A DNA stretch of 64,000 nt from Buchnera aphidicola (Artemisaphis artemisicola). Its GTDB lineage: Bacteria; Pseudomonadota; Gammaproteobacteria; Enterobacterales; Enterobacteriaceae. Under the pieces are notes generated by a model, which saw nothing but the letters and a program-made list of their open reading frames with translations, had not been told where the DNA came from and did not search any database. The stretch is taken from positions 372,001 to 436,000 of the forward strand of contig NZ_CP034900.1 of NCBI RefSeq assembly GCF_005082365.1, in the 5' to 3' direction. Below, one piece after another: positions 7,384-59,929 of the stretch (position 1 is the stretch's first letter; every line of letters starts with the position of its first letter). Position numbers and translations under genes: made by a program.

Positions 7384-8339
7384 ATGACATTATTCGCAAT
7401 GTTATTTCCTGGACAAGGTTCACAATATTTAGGCATGTTGTCTTCTTTTTTTTCTGAAAAAAATAATATTTTTAAAAATACTTTTGATGAAGCATCTGAC
7501 TGTATCAAATATGATTTGTTTAAATTAATAAAAAAAGGACCAGAAGAAAAATTAAATCAAAGTAGGTATACACAAGTCATAGTATTATCTTCATCAGTTG
7601 CAATATATCGTTTATGGCAATATAAAAATGGAAACAATCCATCATTAATGTCTGGACACAGCTTAGGAGAATATTCTGCTTTAGTATGTTCGAATGCAAT
7701 TAAATTTTTTGATGCATTAAAACTAGTTTTTTTTCGCGGAAAATTAATGGAAGAAATAACCATAAATCGACCTTCCTTGATGCAAGCAATTATTGGTATA
7801 GAAAAAAAAACAGTAGAAACTGTATGTTCGTCGATAGTACTAAAAAAAAAATAGTATCTCTAGCAAGTATAAATTCTCATGATCAAATAGTAATTTCAGG
7901 AGATAAATCTGCTGTATGCGAGGCAAGTTTTAATTGCAAAAAACTTGGTGCTAAGTATATATTGAACATAAACAGTAATATACCTGCTCATTCTGTAATA
8001 TTAAAACCAATATCTAAGAAACTAAAAAAAAAGTTAAAAAATATTACTATAAATTCACCAATTATTCCTGTGATCAATAATGTTGATGTAAAATCTGAAA
8101 AAACTAGTAAAAATATTAAAGATGCTTTAATAAGACAAATCTATAGTACTGTAAGATGGCAAGAAATTATAGAACTAATAAAGTCAAAAAAATATTTTAC
8201 TATGTTAGAAATTGGACCTAATAATATACTTACCAACTTAAATAAAAAACACAAAAATATCATTCCATTTAGTACAAATAACTTAAAAAATTTTTTAATA
8301 GCATTTCAAAAAATTAATAAAGAAAAAAATGAATTCTAA
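7384..8339 (+). CDS. fabD: Malonyl-CoA:ACP transacylase FabD, frameshifted in an A10 tract
   Basis: FabD loads malonyl groups onto ACP for fatty-acid elongation. The first 156 codons end in a TAG at 7852-7854 directly after ten A at 7842-7851; the rest of the protein continues in another frame to 8339. One extra A would restore a single 318-codon ORF, close to the family length (309 in E. coli). Both halves are well conserved: GQGSQ near the start, GHSLG with nucleophile Ser93, and catalytic His203 (restored numbering) in IPAHSVILKP, then NNVDVK and the EIGP block. This is not the pattern of a decaying gene. RNA polymerase slippage on A tracts, known in Buchnera, could yield a fraction of correct mRNA. 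A sequencing error in the homopolymer is the alternative. It overlaps fabG by 11 bases. Confidence 0.85.
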
Positions 8340-17412: not shown

Positions 17413-18612
17413 TTAATATTTTTTTACTGGCAACTTAAAAGCTTCATATAACTCTTTTAAAAATTTTTTATCTAAACAAAATGTTTTTCCTGGACTATCA
17501 GAAATTTTAGCAACAGGTTTACCGTTACATGTTACTAATTTAATTACAATATTTAATGGTTCTACATATGGAATATCACAAGTTAATTTTGTTCCTATTC
17601 CAAATATAACATTAATTCTATTATGAAACTTTTTATAAAGAGATATAATTTTTTCAAAATTTAGATTATCTGAAAAAACTAATGTTTTAGTAAAAGGGTC
17701 TATTCCTAATTTTTCATAATGTCTTAAAGCTTTTTCACCCCATTGAACTGGATCTCCTGAATCATGCCTGATTCCTTTATATAAAGAACTAAAATGTAAA
17801 TTAAAATCATTTAAAAATGCATCCATTGTAATAGAATCTGTTAGAGCAATGCTTAGATGACTTTGATATTGATTTAACCATGTTTGCAATGCCATTATTT
17901 GACTATTTTTTAAATTAGAACTAATTTGTTGATGTGCTTGAAACCATTCATGCGCTTGTGTTCCAAATGGTTTTAATTTTAATATACGTGCTATATGATA
18001 ATTACTTGAACCAATTAAAAAGGGAAATGTTTCTTTTAATCTTTTAATAACAGAATATTGTACATCATAAGAAAATCTTCTTCTTGTGCCAAAATCAATA
18101 ATTTTTAAATCAGATAAATCTATATTTTTAGTATATTTAAAAAATTTTATTAATTTATAATCTAAATATTTAACAGCATTTTGAGAACTAATTTTTGGAT
18201 GAAAATTACTATGAAAAATTTCACTAATTAAAGATAGAATCGGAACTTCCCATAATATTACTTCTTTCCATAAGCCCGTTATATGAATATGTAATTGATT
18301 ATGATAGTTATTTATTTTTACTTGTGAAATATTATAACGAAATTTTTTTAACCAATGTAAATATTCTTTTTTAAAAAAAGGTAAAGAATTCATATAAAGA
18401 TATTCTTCATGACTTAAAGTCAAAGACTTCATCATACTAATTTGTTTATATAAAATATTAGAATAACATCCTAAAAAATTTTTTCCTCTACAAATAAATT
18501 TAGCTGCTACATATACATTTTTATAATGATAAAAAATAGCTTGTTGCATATGAAGTTTATATGCATCAGTATCAAGAAATGTTTTTACAATTAAATGATT
18601 ATTTTGTTTCAT
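17413..18612 (-). CDS. pncB: Nicotinate phosphoribosyltransferase
   Basis: PncB makes nicotinate mononucleotide from nicotinate and PRPP, using ATP, in NAD salvage. The 399 residues match the family (400 in E. coli): [15 protein letters not shown] at the start, [11 protein letters not shown], the GSSNYHIAR and [11 protein letters not shown] blocks holding the phosphorylated His, and [15 protein letters not shown]. It is the first gene of the pncB-asnS-porin series on the minus strand. It implies uptake of nicotinate from the host. Confidence 0.95.
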
Positions 18613-18854: not shown

Positions 18855-19867
18855 ATGTTTTATTATTTAATTCGTAAATTTTTGTTTTCAATAGAACCTG
18901 AAAAAGCTCATTTTTTAGCATTACAATATTTAAAAATTAAAAAAAATAAATTATTTAATTTTTTTTTTCTAAATCTATAAAACCATCAAAAAACATTCAG
19001 TGTATGGGTTTAACTTTTAAAAATCCTTTAGGAACTGCAGCCGGAATAGATAAAAATGGAGAATATATAAATGCTTTATCGAGAATAGGATTTGGTTTTA
19101 TTGAAGTAGGAACAGTGACTCCTTTGCCTCAAATAGGTAATCCTAAACCTAGAATGTTTAGAATTATTCCTGTAGAAGGAATAATTAATAGAATGGGTTT
19201 TAATAATCTTGGAATAGATAATTTAATTAAAAACATAAAAACATCTAATTTTAAAGGAATAATAGGAGTAAATATTGGAAAAAATGAAAACACTAGTATA
19301 AAAAATGCAATTAATGATTATTTAATATGTATTGAAAAGATTTATACCTATGCTAGCTACATTGCTATTAATATTTCTTCACCTAATACTACAAGTTTAA
19401 GAACATTACAATATGGAAAAATTTTTCAAAATTTATTATATCATGTAAAAAATAAACAAAAAGAACTACAAAAAAAATATTTAAAATATGTTCCTATTGC
19501 TATTAAAATCTCACCAGATCTTTCAAAAGAAGAACTAGTTCAAATTTCTAAACAGTTAATTAAATACAAAATAGATGCAGTAATTGCAACTAACACAACT
19601 ATAGATCATTTAGTAGTACCAGGATTAAAAAATAATTTAGAAAAAGGAGGAATCAGTGGATTACCTTTACAAAAAAAAAGCACTAATGTAATTTCAATAT
19701 TATCAAAAAATTTAAATAAAAAAATTCCAATTATTGGAGTAGGTGGAATTAATTCTATTGATTCAGCAAAAGAAAAAATTAAATCAGGTGCTACATTAAT
19801 ACAAATTTATTCTGGAATGGTATATCATGGACCGAAATTAATTGAAAGAATTATTGATCAAATATAA
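18855..19867 (+). CDS. pyrD: Dihydroorotate dehydrogenase PyrD, frameshifted in a T10 tract
   Basis: This class 2, quinone-linked, membrane-associated enzyme oxidises dihydroorotate to orotate with FMN. The ATG at 18855 follows AAGGA and starts [20 protein letters not shown], the family N-terminus. The frame stops at codon 42 after ten T at 18959-18968. The rest of the enzyme, from [22 protein letters not shown] on, continues in another frame to 19867. One extra T restores 337 codons, versus 336 in E. coli. Downstream motifs are intact (NRMGFNN, NISSPNT with the catalytic Ser, NTTID, GVGGI, QIYSG). Starting at the internal ATG at 19004 would delete the membrane-binding helices. Slippage at the U tract, or a homopolymer sequencing error, are the two explanations. 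Confidence 0.85.
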
Positions 19868-47508: not shown

Positions 47509-48126
47509 TTATCTGGTTGCTAGGATGAATATTTCTCGAGATCTTGTTCGAGAAGTTTTAGGTTTACAAATTTTAATGTGTTTAAAAAATATTTTAATTT
47601 CTTTATACAACTCATTAAACCCTTCTCCTTGAAATGATTTTAATAAAAAAATACCCTTTTTAGATAAAACATAATTTGATATTTTTAATGCTAATTTAGC
47701 TAAATTGATAATTCGAGGCATATCAATAGAAAAGTGTCCTGTTATATTAGGAGTCATGTCTGACATGACTAAATGAAACTTAATATGACTAAAAGAATTT
47801 AACATAAAGTTTAATGTTTTCTTATTACTAAAATCTCCTTGAAAAATATCTACACCTGTTATTGGTTTTATAGGCAATATATCACAGGCTATAATACGAC
47901 CTTTTTTCCCAATTTTACTCACAGCATATTGTGACCAGCTTCCAGGAGCGGCGCCTAAGTCAATTACGTTCATATTAGTTTTAAATATTCTGTTACTTTT
48001 ATCTAATTGTTCTAATTTAAACCAAGCTCTTGAACGTATTTTATTATTTTTTGCTTTCTTGACATATAGATCTTTAAAATGTTCTAATAACCAACGATTA
48101 GAACTGTTTTTTTTTTTATAAATCAT
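47509..48126 (-). CDS. rlmE: 23S rRNA 2'-O-ribose methyltransferase RlmE
   Basis: RlmE (FtsJ) methylates U2552 in the ribosomal A site. The 205 residues (209 in E. coli) show the SAM motif VIDLGAAPGSWSQYA, the VMSDMTPN motif and KSFQGEG, giving a K-D-K-E catalytic set, with KKAKNNKIRSRAWFKLEQ at the N-terminus. It precedes ftsH by 58 bases, as in E. coli. An A11 tract (T11 at 48107-48117) near the start is in frame. Confidence 0.95.
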   Translation of the reverse strand: MIYKKKNSSNRWLLEHFKDLYVKKAKNNKIRSRAWFKLEQLDKSNRIFKTNMNVIDLGAAPGSWSQYAVSKIGKKGRIIACDILPIKPITGVDIFQGDFSNKKTLNFMLNSFSHIKFHLVMSDMTPNITGHFSIDMPRIINLAKLALKISNYVLSKKGIFLLKSFQGEGFNELYKEIKIFFKHIKICKPKTSRTRSREIFILATR

Positions 48127-56431: not shown

Positions 56432-56689
56432 ATGGTAAAAATTCGTTTATCTCGATATGGCACAAAAAAACGTCCTTTTTATAAAATGATAGTCGCTGAT
56501 AGTCGTTGTTCTCGAGATGGTCGTTTTATTGAAAAAGTCGGTTATTTTAACCCTATTGCTAGAAGCAAGTCTGATATACTTCAATTGAATTTAATTCGCA
56601 TTAAATATTGGATAAATCAAGGAGCACAAATATCAGAAAGAAGTAAGAAATTAATAAAATTATTTAATAAAAAAGAGGAAAAATTATAA
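56432..56689 (+). CDS. rpsP: 30S ribosomal protein S16
   Basis: S16 has 85 residues (82 in E. coli), starting [19 protein letters not shown] after AAGGAG, and contains [19 protein letters not shown]. It heads the rpsP-rimM-trmD-rplS operon of enterobacteria. Its TAA stop at 56687-56689 overlaps the presumed AUA start of rimM. Confidence 0.97.
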
Positions 56690-57213
56690 ATATTAAAATT
56701 AAAAAACCAATTGAACCAATATTAATAGGAAAAGTTGGAAAATCTTATGGAATATTAGGCTGGATGAATGTTTTTTCTTTTACGGAAAAAGAAGAAAATA
56801 TATTCACATATATCCCATGGTTTTTTTTAAAAGAAAAGATTTTTACACAAGTACAAGTAAAAAATTGGAAAAGATACAAAAAGAATTTTATTATTTATAT
56901 TGATACAATTTCTGATCGTTCAACAGCTAAAAAATTTACTAATTCAAATATCATTATCAGCAGGCATCAACTACCTTTATTACAAAATAATGAATATTAT
57001 TGGAATGATATTATCAGTTATAAAGTATTTAATATAAATAAAATTTATTTAGGCATAGTAATTGATTTAATAAGAACAAAAGATAATGATATACTTGTAG
57101 TAAGACATGTATTCAAAAAACTAAAAAAAAATATTTTTATTCCCTTTATTGAACAAACAATAATACAAAAAATAGATTCAAAATATAAATACATAATAGT
57201 TCGATGGAATTAA
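56686..57213 (+). CDS. rimM: 16S rRNA processing protein RimM, probable AUA start
   Basis: RimM binds S19 and helps mature the 30S head. The conserved N-terminus ([17 protein letters not shown]) lies in the open frame upstream of the first ATG at 56764, so an ATG-based start would remove it. In that frame there is no ATG, GTG or TTG in a suitable place. ATA at 56686 lies seven bases after GAGG (56675-56678) and gives [15 protein letters not shown], 175 residues (182 in E. coli). The base at 56688 is the third base of this ATA and the second base of the rpsP TAA; G there would give ATG and TGA. An AUU start three bases earlier is possible but too near the binding site. The C-terminal PRC domain ([11 protein letters not shown]) is present. 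Confidence 0.88.
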
Positions 57214-57228
57214 TAATGTAATATATAT

Positions 57229-57988
57229 ATGAAAAAAAAACACAATGAAACGTTAATATGGTTCAACATAATTACTATTTTCCCGGAAATGTTTCGTGCT
57301 ATTACTAATTATGGTATTACTGGCAAAGCTATAAAAAAAAAATCATTAATATAAATTTTTTAAATCCTAGAGATTTTATAAAAAATAAACATAAGTCTAT
57401 TGATGATCGTCCTTATGGAGGAGGACCGGGTATGTTAATGAGTGTCAAACCGTTGTATTTAGCTATTCAATATGCAAAATCTATATTAAAAAATGCAACT
57501 GTTATTTATTTATCTCCTCAAGGAAAAAAACTAGAACAAAATCACATACCAAAATTAATAAAAAAAAAGGAAATTATTTTTATATGTGGTCGATATGAAG
57601 GAATAGATGAAAGAATTATTGATCATCAAGTAGATGAAGAATGGTCTATTGGCAATTATATTATTAGTGGAGGGGAATTAGCTGCTATGATTATGATTGA
57701 TTCTATTTCTAGATTTATTCCTGGTGTTATTAAAAAAAAACAATCGATAGAAGATGATTCTTTTTCTAATAATTTACTAGATTATCCAAATTATACTCGA
57801 CCAAGAATAATACATGATATGTCAGTTCCTGAAATATTATTATCTGGAAACCATGAAAAAATTCGTCTTTGGCGTTTAAAACAATCTCTTGGAAAAACAT
57901 GGATAAAACGTCCTGATCTTTTAAAAAAAAAAAATTAACACGCGAAGAAGAAAAACTTTTAGATGAATTTAAAAAAGATAAAAAATAA
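57229..57988 (+). CDS. trmD: tRNA (guanine-37-N1) methyltransferase TrmD, two poly-A frameshifts
   Basis: TrmD makes m1G37, which prevents +1 frameshifting by tRNAs. The ATG at 57229 leads into [21 protein letters not shown], the family N-terminus. The frame ends at a TAA (57352-57354) shortly after ten A at 57333-57342; the rest, from [12 protein letters not shown] through [11 protein letters not shown], continues in another frame. That frame ends in turn at 57936-57938 after twelve A at 57923-57934, while the family tail ([15 protein letters not shown]) goes on in a third frame to the TAA at 57986-57988. One extra A at each site gives 253 residues (255 in E. coli). Knot motifs [18 protein letters not shown] and SGGELAAM and the [16 protein letters not shown] segment are intact. 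The gene is essential in bacteria, so slippage rescue is likely unless the tracts are miscounted. Confidence 0.85.
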
Positions 57989-58030: not shown

Positions 58031-58378
58031 ATGCTAAATATAATAAAATCAATAGAAAAAGAACAAATGAAAAAAAATATACCTATTTTTCGACCTGGAG
58101 ATACTATAGAAGTCAAAGTTTGGGTGATAGAAGGTTCTAAAAAACGTCTTCAATCTTTTGAAGGAATAGTAATAGCAATAAAAAATCGTTGTTTAAATTC
58201 ATCTTTTACTGTACGTAAAATTTCTAATGGAGAAGGCATTGAACGTGTTTTTCAAACACACTCTTATAGTATAAACGATATTATCGTTAAAAGAAAAGGA
58301 TTGGTTAGAAAAGCAAAATTATATTATTTAAGAAATCTTACTGGCAAAGCTGCTCGCATTAAAGAAAGAATTAACTAA
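58031..58378 (+). CDS. rplS: 50S ribosomal protein L19
   Basis: L19 has 115 residues, the E. coli length, starting [25 protein letters not shown] after AGGGG. Conserved blocks are [20 protein letters not shown] and RRAKLYYLR-like [21 protein letters not shown]. It closes the rpsP operon and is followed by a hairpin. Confidence 0.97.
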
Positions 58379-58477: not shown

Positions 58478-59929
58478 TTAATTTGTTCCACCTATTGTTA
58501 AACTTTCCAATTTAATAGAAGGCTGTCCTATTCCAACTGGAATATTTTGACCTTCTTTACCACAAACACCTGTTCCTTCATCCATTTTAAAATCATTTCC
58601 AACCATTGATACTTTTTGCATAACTTCTAAACCAGATCCTATTAATGTTGTATTTTTAATTGGTGTTATAATTTTACCTTTTTTAATTAAATATGCTTCA
58701 GCAGTAGAAAAGACAAAATTTCCAGAAGTAATATCAACTTGACCTCCAGAAAAATTTATAGCATATATACCATAGTCGACACTTTTAATAATATCTTCTA
58801 TTTTAGAAACACCAGATAACATATAAGTATTAGTCATACGAGGCATAGGTAAAGATGCATAAGATTCACGACGTCCATTACCAGTAGATGCTGTTCCCAT
58901 TAAACGTGCATTAAGCTTATCTTGCATGTACTGTTTAAGTATTCCATTTTTAATTAAAACGTTATGCTGACTAGGAGTTCCTTCATCATCAATACTTAAT
59001 GAACCTCTTTGATTCTTAATAGTACCATCATCAATAATAGTACATAGTTCTGATGCAACTTTTTTGCCGATCATATTAGTAAATCTTGAAGTTTTTTTTC
59101 TATTGAAATCACCTTCTAAACCATGACCTACTGCTTCATGTAATAAAACTCCTGGCCATCCAGGACCTAATACCACGGGAAACATTCCTGAAGGAGCTTC
59201 TTCAGAAGATAAATTTAAAAGTGCTATGCGAACAGCTTCTTTAGACCAATAATCAATTCTTCTTTCTTTTGCATAATCGTCATTTTTTAAAAAAAAGCTA
59301 TAGTCAGTACGATTACCTCCACCACTACGACCACGTTCTCTTTTTCCATGATCTTCAACTAAAACACTAATTGAAAATTGTACTAGTGGTCTTATATCCG
59401 AAGTTAAATTTCCATCAGTAGAAGCAATTAAAATATGTTCATATAATCCTGTTAAAGTTGCATTTACTTCTACAACTCGATGATCGAAATTGCGCGCTAT
59501 ATAATCTGCTCTATAAAGAAGATCGATTTTTTCTCTAGAAGACAAATTTTGTAAAGGATTCAAATCATTATAAATAGGCTGTGCTTTTTTTATTAATAAT
59601 TTTTTACAACTACCCTTGTCTTTTTGCAAAATAATACTACGAGCTTTATTAACACTTGTTCTTAAGGAATCTTTTGATATTTGATCTGCATATGCAAATC
59701 CAGTAGTTTCACCGCTAATAGCTCTAACACCAATACCTTGATCAGAATGATAAACTCCTTCTTTTATAATTCCATTTTCAAGAAACCAAGATTCATGCAG
59801 ACGAGATTGAAAATAAAAATCTCCATAATCCAAATTACTTGTACAAAGATCTTCTAAAGCAATAAATAAATCTTCATGATTTATTTTATTTTCAGTTAAT
59901 AAAGATTCAGTCACTAATTCAAATGTCAT
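58478..59929 (-). CDS. tldD: Metalloprotease TldD
   Basis: TldD works with TldE (PmbA) as a peptidase that processes modified peptides and the CcdA antidote in E. coli. The 483 residues (481 in E. coli) contain the zinc motif [13 protein letters not shown] (HExxxH), [13 protein letters not shown], and the C-terminal [22 protein letters not shown]. It is alone, converging on rplS and diverging from aroQ. Its partner gene is not in this window. Confidence 0.95.

Follow-up and report, generated by a model that had tools for sequence, protein, structure and literature searches.

Frame-breaking poly(A) tracts rescued by transcriptional slippage have been described in endosymbionts (Tamas et al. 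2008, as related in the accessible parts of PMC5009743, PMC3164680 and PMC5574713). According to the accessible text of PMC3164680, each Buchnera genome carries between 1 and 18 homopolymeric frameshifts, and some genes have been broken independently in several lineages. Here we analyse the trmD gene of Buchnera aphidicola (Artemisaphis artemisicola), which encodes the enzyme responsible for 1-methylguanosine at tRNA position 37 (m1G37) and lies in a window of 64,000 nucleotides (contig NZ_CP034900.1, forward strand, positions 372,001 to 436,000; coordinates below are those of the window unless another locus is named). Its reading frame switches twice, at a run of ten A towards the 5' end (tract 1) and at a run of twelve A towards the 3' end (tract 2). 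On balance we favour the reading that both breaks are real, differ in age and lie in a working trmD that is rescued by +1 slippage of RNA polymerase.

With the genes of the type described by Tamas et al., the locus shares its occurrence in Buchnera, a single-base break at an A run of at least ten, a constrained downstream part and the need for a +1 correction. It differs from them in that the accessible text of PMC5009743, PMC3164680 and PMC5574713 does not name trmD, in having two tracts in series, in a 3' break that recurs in several species with a conserved tail, and in being known here from DNA alone. Compared with the TrmD family (PF01746, TIGR00088, NF000648; PDB 1p9p and 1uaj), the core scores above the curated cut-offs and has rpsP, rimM and rplS as neighbours, whereas the two frame changes set it apart. 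Programmed −1 frameshifting (A_AAA_AAA or A_AAA_AAG) offers a further parallel, with a slippery heptamer in phase and the needed direction, but no downstream structure was found and the shifts yield an ordinary family protein rather than an extra product. In the accessible part of PMC3164680 pseudogenes are defined by truncation below 80% of length and homopolymer breaks are counted apart; since loss of the trmD tail leaves about 92% of the protein (237 of about 258 amino acids), it may have gone unscored under that rule. No paper describing a broken trmD frame in Buchnera was found in the literature searched, subscription papers and supplements lying outside that search. The case is an addition to a known phenomenon, and what is new is the gene itself, the two tracts in series and the recurrent 3' break with the tail kept.

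The genome to which the window belongs (G000 hereafter; 641,024 bases in two contigs) includes a leu plasmid, for which plasmids of Buchnera gave the best named matches, at about 83%. The parts of its trmD are the following.

57229..57354, plus strand: 5' part of trmD, an open reading frame (ORF) of 41 amino acids, in the TrmD frame to residue 38 and out of frame past the A10 run, ending ...KAIKKKSLI and a stop
57333..57342, plus strand: tract 1, A10; in G000 the site lacks one base needed to keep the trmD frame
57343..57938, plus strand: trmD core in a second frame, stopping just past tract 2; PF01746 match with E-value 4.3e-62, and a TIGR00088 match
57923..57934, plus strand: tract 2, A12; +1 or −2 needed to reach the tail
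57935..57988, plus strand: C-terminal tail of trmD, 17 residues, out of frame with the core

Both frame changes lie exactly where an earlier note on this DNA had placed them. The gene is otherwise intact and constrained, with breaks in a direction that fits +1 slippage, and the interpretation in the note is supported in part. The core ends in ...RPDLLKKKN at a TAA stop (57936-57938). It matches PF01746 with 207.7 bits against a cut-off of 27.3, and the portion from 57432 alone reaches 230.1 bits with TIGR00088 (cut-off 195) and 221.9 with NF000648 (cut-off 220). The gene is thus recognised by curated TrmD models, and it lacks one continuous reading frame; this is the only trmD match in its own genome. 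Re-initiation past tract 1 was considered and rejected, since the first ATG, GTG or TTG appears only at 57432, at the methionine of GPGM. A search for related loci with the core ORF gave three loci (one Methylomonas, two Legionella), which were not used.

The same note had proposed one missing A in each tract. At tract 2 the addition of one A does restore the frame, as does the removal of two. At tract 1 the loss of an A is one reading among others: the sister genome G034 reads GCT ATT-A10-TTATT, in frame and encoding IKKKII, whereas the window reads GCT AT-A10-TCATT, and the base lost may have been a T beside an unchanged A10, or else a T may have changed to A before one A was lost. With this proviso for tract 1, the single-base break in an A/T run of about nine or more that is typical of slippage genes is present in trmD.

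Across Buchnera, trmD is present in 36 of 36 species genomes. Its tail is out of frame at tract 2 in seven of them, with A12 in G000, G034, G011 and G032 and A10 in G029, G002 and G006. All seven breaks need +1 A or −2 A, the core ends in KKKN, KKKY or KKKH just after the run in each, and a tail of the type L[TK]xEE...LLxEF (LKKEE in G029) stands in the other frame. The tail is in frame in 28 other genomes; in the remaining one, G028, it is out of frame at another A run, shorter than tract 2 (EKKILKKKKKIF, followed by a stop), where +1 is needed. The break at tract 2, common to the sister G034 and five other species, was probably inherited or reflects a recurrent hot spot. Under parsimony the tract 2 state changes five times on one of two trees, where 131 of 2000 shuffles needed no more changes, and four times on the other, where this held for 7 of 2000, so that one old origin and repeated origins are indistinguishable; the trees were built with IQ-TREE, and with FastTree for the larger alignment. 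The 3' break occurs in several species with the tail kept, and is possibly old. The two breaks are consequently not the equivalent, independent events of the earlier note, the 3' one being shared in this way and only the 5' one private.

The tail appeared to be under selection even where it is out of frame. Among pairs from 34 genomes with a core distance below 0.25 (G028 and G003 left out; pairs not independent), the ratio of tail to core divergence was 1.93 for out-of-frame pairs (21 pairs), 1.98 for in-frame pairs (103) and 2.07 for mixed pairs (99); set against the core, a tail out of frame diverges no more quickly than one in frame. In the 12-codon core of the tail, the pooled pN/pS (non-synonymous to synonymous differences) was 0.32 when read in the trmD frame; the other two frames gave 2.72 and 0.67, and 10 relatives with an in-frame tail gave 0.37. 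G003, whose tail is in frame, is absent from the tail statistics, and G028 and G019 yielded no tail core for pN/pS. Purifying selection beyond the break, which is expected of a slippage gene, was hence found for the tail, albeit with a wide error and one test that was not significant; it was also found for the core after tract 1, though a very recent break would look alike.

Enzyme lacking the tail is probably active, a view that is plausible rather than proven and agrees with the earlier note. The last of the 221 positions of NF000648 falls at residue 232 of a full-length Buchnera TrmD, before the tail, and the tail-less protein of G029 matches positions 3-221 of this model. When 27 solved TrmD sequences were compared with the full-length protein, 11 aligned only to residues 225-235. 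A Buchnera TrmD of about 237 rather than about 258 amino acids may mirror the length of the tract and not that of the protein.

Tract 1 shows a different picture, since its break puts everything past residue 38 out of normal reading. At least nine A stand at this site in 22 of the 36 genomes, and the site is broken only in G000 and, on a distant branch, in G025, which carries a break of its own at A11. Among genomes with at least ten A at the site, the frame is lost in 7 of 9 at tract 2 and in 2 of 12 at tract 1 (Fisher p 0.009, with 35 genomes measured at tract 2 and 36 at tract 1, and relatedness ignored), a skew that would be seen if a break were costly at tract 1 only. We also compared private changes between G000 and its sister G034 in 13 segments, where the gene names other than trmD, fabD and pyrD are those we presume. 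For the trmD core the private changes number 6 in G000 and 7 in G034, so that selection on trmD either persists or ceased only very recently. Near-even counts (G000/G034) were likewise obtained for the second half of fabD (10/12), fabG (11/11), pyrD (16/15), rlmL (34/31) and rplS (4/3), while G000 was somewhat faster in rluC, the first half of fabD, ffh and rpsP.

According to the proposed mechanism, RNA polymerase would often add an A at the A10 run of tract 1, and a minority of transcripts would then encode TrmD. At tract 2 most of the protein would be made without the tail and would still methylate G37, while a fraction of transcripts with an extra A would give the full-length enzyme. TrmD from corrected transcripts would accordingly be mostly tail-less, and the share carrying both corrections would be the product of two frequencies. 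All ten trmD breaks need +1 (two at tract 1, seven at tract 2 and that of G028; four were found split by tblastn and six were read). In the accessible text of PMC5574713, 151 of 157 insertions arising during Buchnera transcription fell in homopolymer runs and rose with run length, compared with 16 of 57 deletions. Corrected transcripts amount to 12-50% for other endosymbiont genes, as given in the accessible part of the review PMC5009743. If such values applied independently at both tracts, simple arithmetic would give about 1-25% of fully corrected transcripts, and 12-50% corrected at tract 1. Were slippage to feed trmD in this manner, an essential or near-essential tRNA enzyme would depend on two serial polymerase errors, and the case would strictly test the amount of frame loss that a small genome tolerates.

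Several observations weigh against this reading. The bootstrap range of the tail pN/pS is wide (0.10-0.71), four non-synonymous changes within the 12 codons of the tail core separate the closest out-of-frame pair, G011 and G032, and a third-position shuffle test of the tail differences was not significant (543 of 5000 shuffles as high). The tail may matter to the enzyme, as the match to TIGR00088 (233 positions) extends to position 230 with it and to 223 without it, and the remaining 16 of the 27 solved TrmDs, E. coli included, align to residues 245-252; on the other side, its loss in G028 may mean that it is weakly needed. The tree near the out-of-frame species is poorly resolved, and the 36 genomes cannot be treated as independent samples. 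An unrelaxed core would also be seen after a very recent break, and the +1 direction equally fits a plain deletion bias. Finally, no restored frame was seen in the accessible text of the Buchnera transcript-error study (PMC5574713).

An artefact was considered as an alternative. In about 65 kb of each of six genomes, tract-linked frame changes affected 1 to 4 genes: fabD, pyrD and trmD in G000, G029 and G011; fabD and trmD in G034; fabD, pyrD, trmD and a presumed murA in G002; and a presumed nusA in G026. Four low-identity or tract-free matches (G002 14300, G029 6047, G026 8443, G011 12251) were left out. With so few genes affected in this way, we take the frame changes of trmD to exceed what chance would give. 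Broken A/T runs of at least 10 numbered 4/12 in G000, 2/10 in G034, 4/12 in G002, 3/16 in G029, 3/14 in G011 and 0/10 in G026. A general assembly fault is unlikely, because the relatives show breaks at long A/T runs about as often; an assembly prone to homopolymer errors would be expected to show more broken runs, and G000 stands at the upper end, not alone. The T11 run at 48107 in the window is in frame. Another count, of runs over which a single frame stays open (in G000, 48 of 58 with at least 9 bases and 7 of 12 with at least 10, the latter share being the lowest of the six genomes), was dropped as too loose, as it took in the broken fabD run. A narrower version holds that tract 1 alone is a base-calling error, the genome having one more base there, and that only the common 3' break is real. 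Miscalling one base in a run of ten is a common error, and three of the four broken runs in the window are also broken at the homologous run of a near relative, the break at tract 1 being the exception. Nevertheless, three broken genes in the window against 1 to 4 in five relatives do not amount to a clear excess, the share of 4/12 equals that of G002, though it exceeds those of the other four genomes, and G025 has its own break at the same run; we hold a miscall at tract 1 to be possible, if unlikely.

It is less likely again that trmD is a recent pseudogene without rescue, in which m1G37 has been lost or nearly so and the remainder has not yet decayed. E. coli survives the loss of m1G37, though its growth is severely impaired (accessible text of PMC8643618), homopolymer breaks in endosymbionts are commonly taken as recent inactivations (accessible text of PMC3164680), and the absence of a restored frame from PMC5574713, already mentioned, would agree with this. 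The trmD of Blochmanniella, a different endosymbiont, has a high dN/dS of 0.69, and the authors suggest that such functions may no longer be required (accessible text of PMC12779916). Against these points, trmD is kept in every one of the Buchnera species, its core shows no relaxation in the private-change count, though a very recent loss would look alike, and two tRNAs with G37 remain. Rescue at the ribosome, by −1 frameshifting on A_AAA_AAA in both tracts to give the same proteins, is very improbable. The heptamer is in phase in both runs, as judged by eye, both need the −1 direction, and ribosomal correction at an oligoA run has been argued for chloroplast atpB (accessible text of PMC8254509); the 90 nt past each tract, however, showed no stable stimulating structure (z of −0.32 and −0.17 relative to shuffles), and polymerase insertion at A/T runs has been measured directly in Buchnera (accessible text of PMC5574713). 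The ribosomal and the polymerase routes can act together.

Beyond polymerase slippage as a mere rescue, tract 2 might be a long-lived recoding site of Buchnera, out of frame through successive species splits, that makes TrmD both with and without its C-terminal tail in a ratio set by slippage, the second tract of G000 then putting all TrmD under slippage control. We advance this only tentatively, as it seems rather doubtful; if it were true, the supply of an enzyme for faithful reading would rest on a steady rate of polymerase error.

Regarding the substrates of the enzyme, G37 is present in tRNA-Pro(UGG) and tRNA-Leu(UAG), two of the three tRNAs looked at, and no match of the Trm5 type was found in the G000 genome. 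The tRNA finder was run on 30 of 32 tRNA matches. tRNA-Arg(CCG) is a TrmD substrate in E. coli; here (L131:1704-1779) it has A37 after the anticodon, should not be a substrate, and was not counted. Buchnera tRNAs are modified at position 37 and trmD is among the enzymes listed in the accessible text of PMC6581868, which does not name m1G37 in Buchnera. The earlier note had found the case more striking because TrmD itself guards the reading frame, an argument that carries little weight in this case: what m1G37 is known to suppress is frameshift errors at proline codons, not slippage at A runs (accessible text of PMC8643618). In the accessible part of PMC7641325 the errors concerned are +1 errors.

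The neighbours of trmD, whose names we presume, are the following.

56432..56689, plus strand: rpsP, first gene of the rpsP-rimM-trmD-rplS group (ORF list, homologue search)
56764..57213, plus strand: rimM, with the start as in the ORF list; the true start may be upstream
58031..58378, plus strand: rplS, downstream of trmD (ORF list, homologue search)

In all 36 Buchnera genomes a stretch of 3.6-4 kb contains trmD together with homologues of rpsP, rimM and rplS (presence was scored, not order). In the private-change comparison G000 was clearly faster than G034 in rimM (24/5), and also in tldD (20/3) and pncB (36/12), both of which carry many private changes in the window.

58478-59929: tldD
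17413-18612: pncB

Other genes with tract-linked breaks vary in their distribution. In the window, fabD is broken at an A10 run (7842-7851; ORFs 7384-7854 and 7824-8339). The same stretch of the gene, corresponding to reference residues 141-156 and mostly to the A10 run, is broken in 10 of the 36 genomes, eight needing +1 and two −1; in the sisters G011 and G032 the breaks go in opposite directions. The pyrD gene is broken near its start at a T10 run (18959-18968). It shows a frame change in 12 genomes, eight of them at the N-terminal T run, and 11 of the 12 breaks need +1. G019 gave no pyrD match and G013 and G016 gave only weak distant ones; in G018 the gene is fragmented and contains stops. 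Breaks confined to a single genome were seen in G002 at an A12 run (L047:10346), in a murA-like gene, and in G026 near T7/T9 runs (L055:2627-2655), in a nusA-like gene, both names being presumed.
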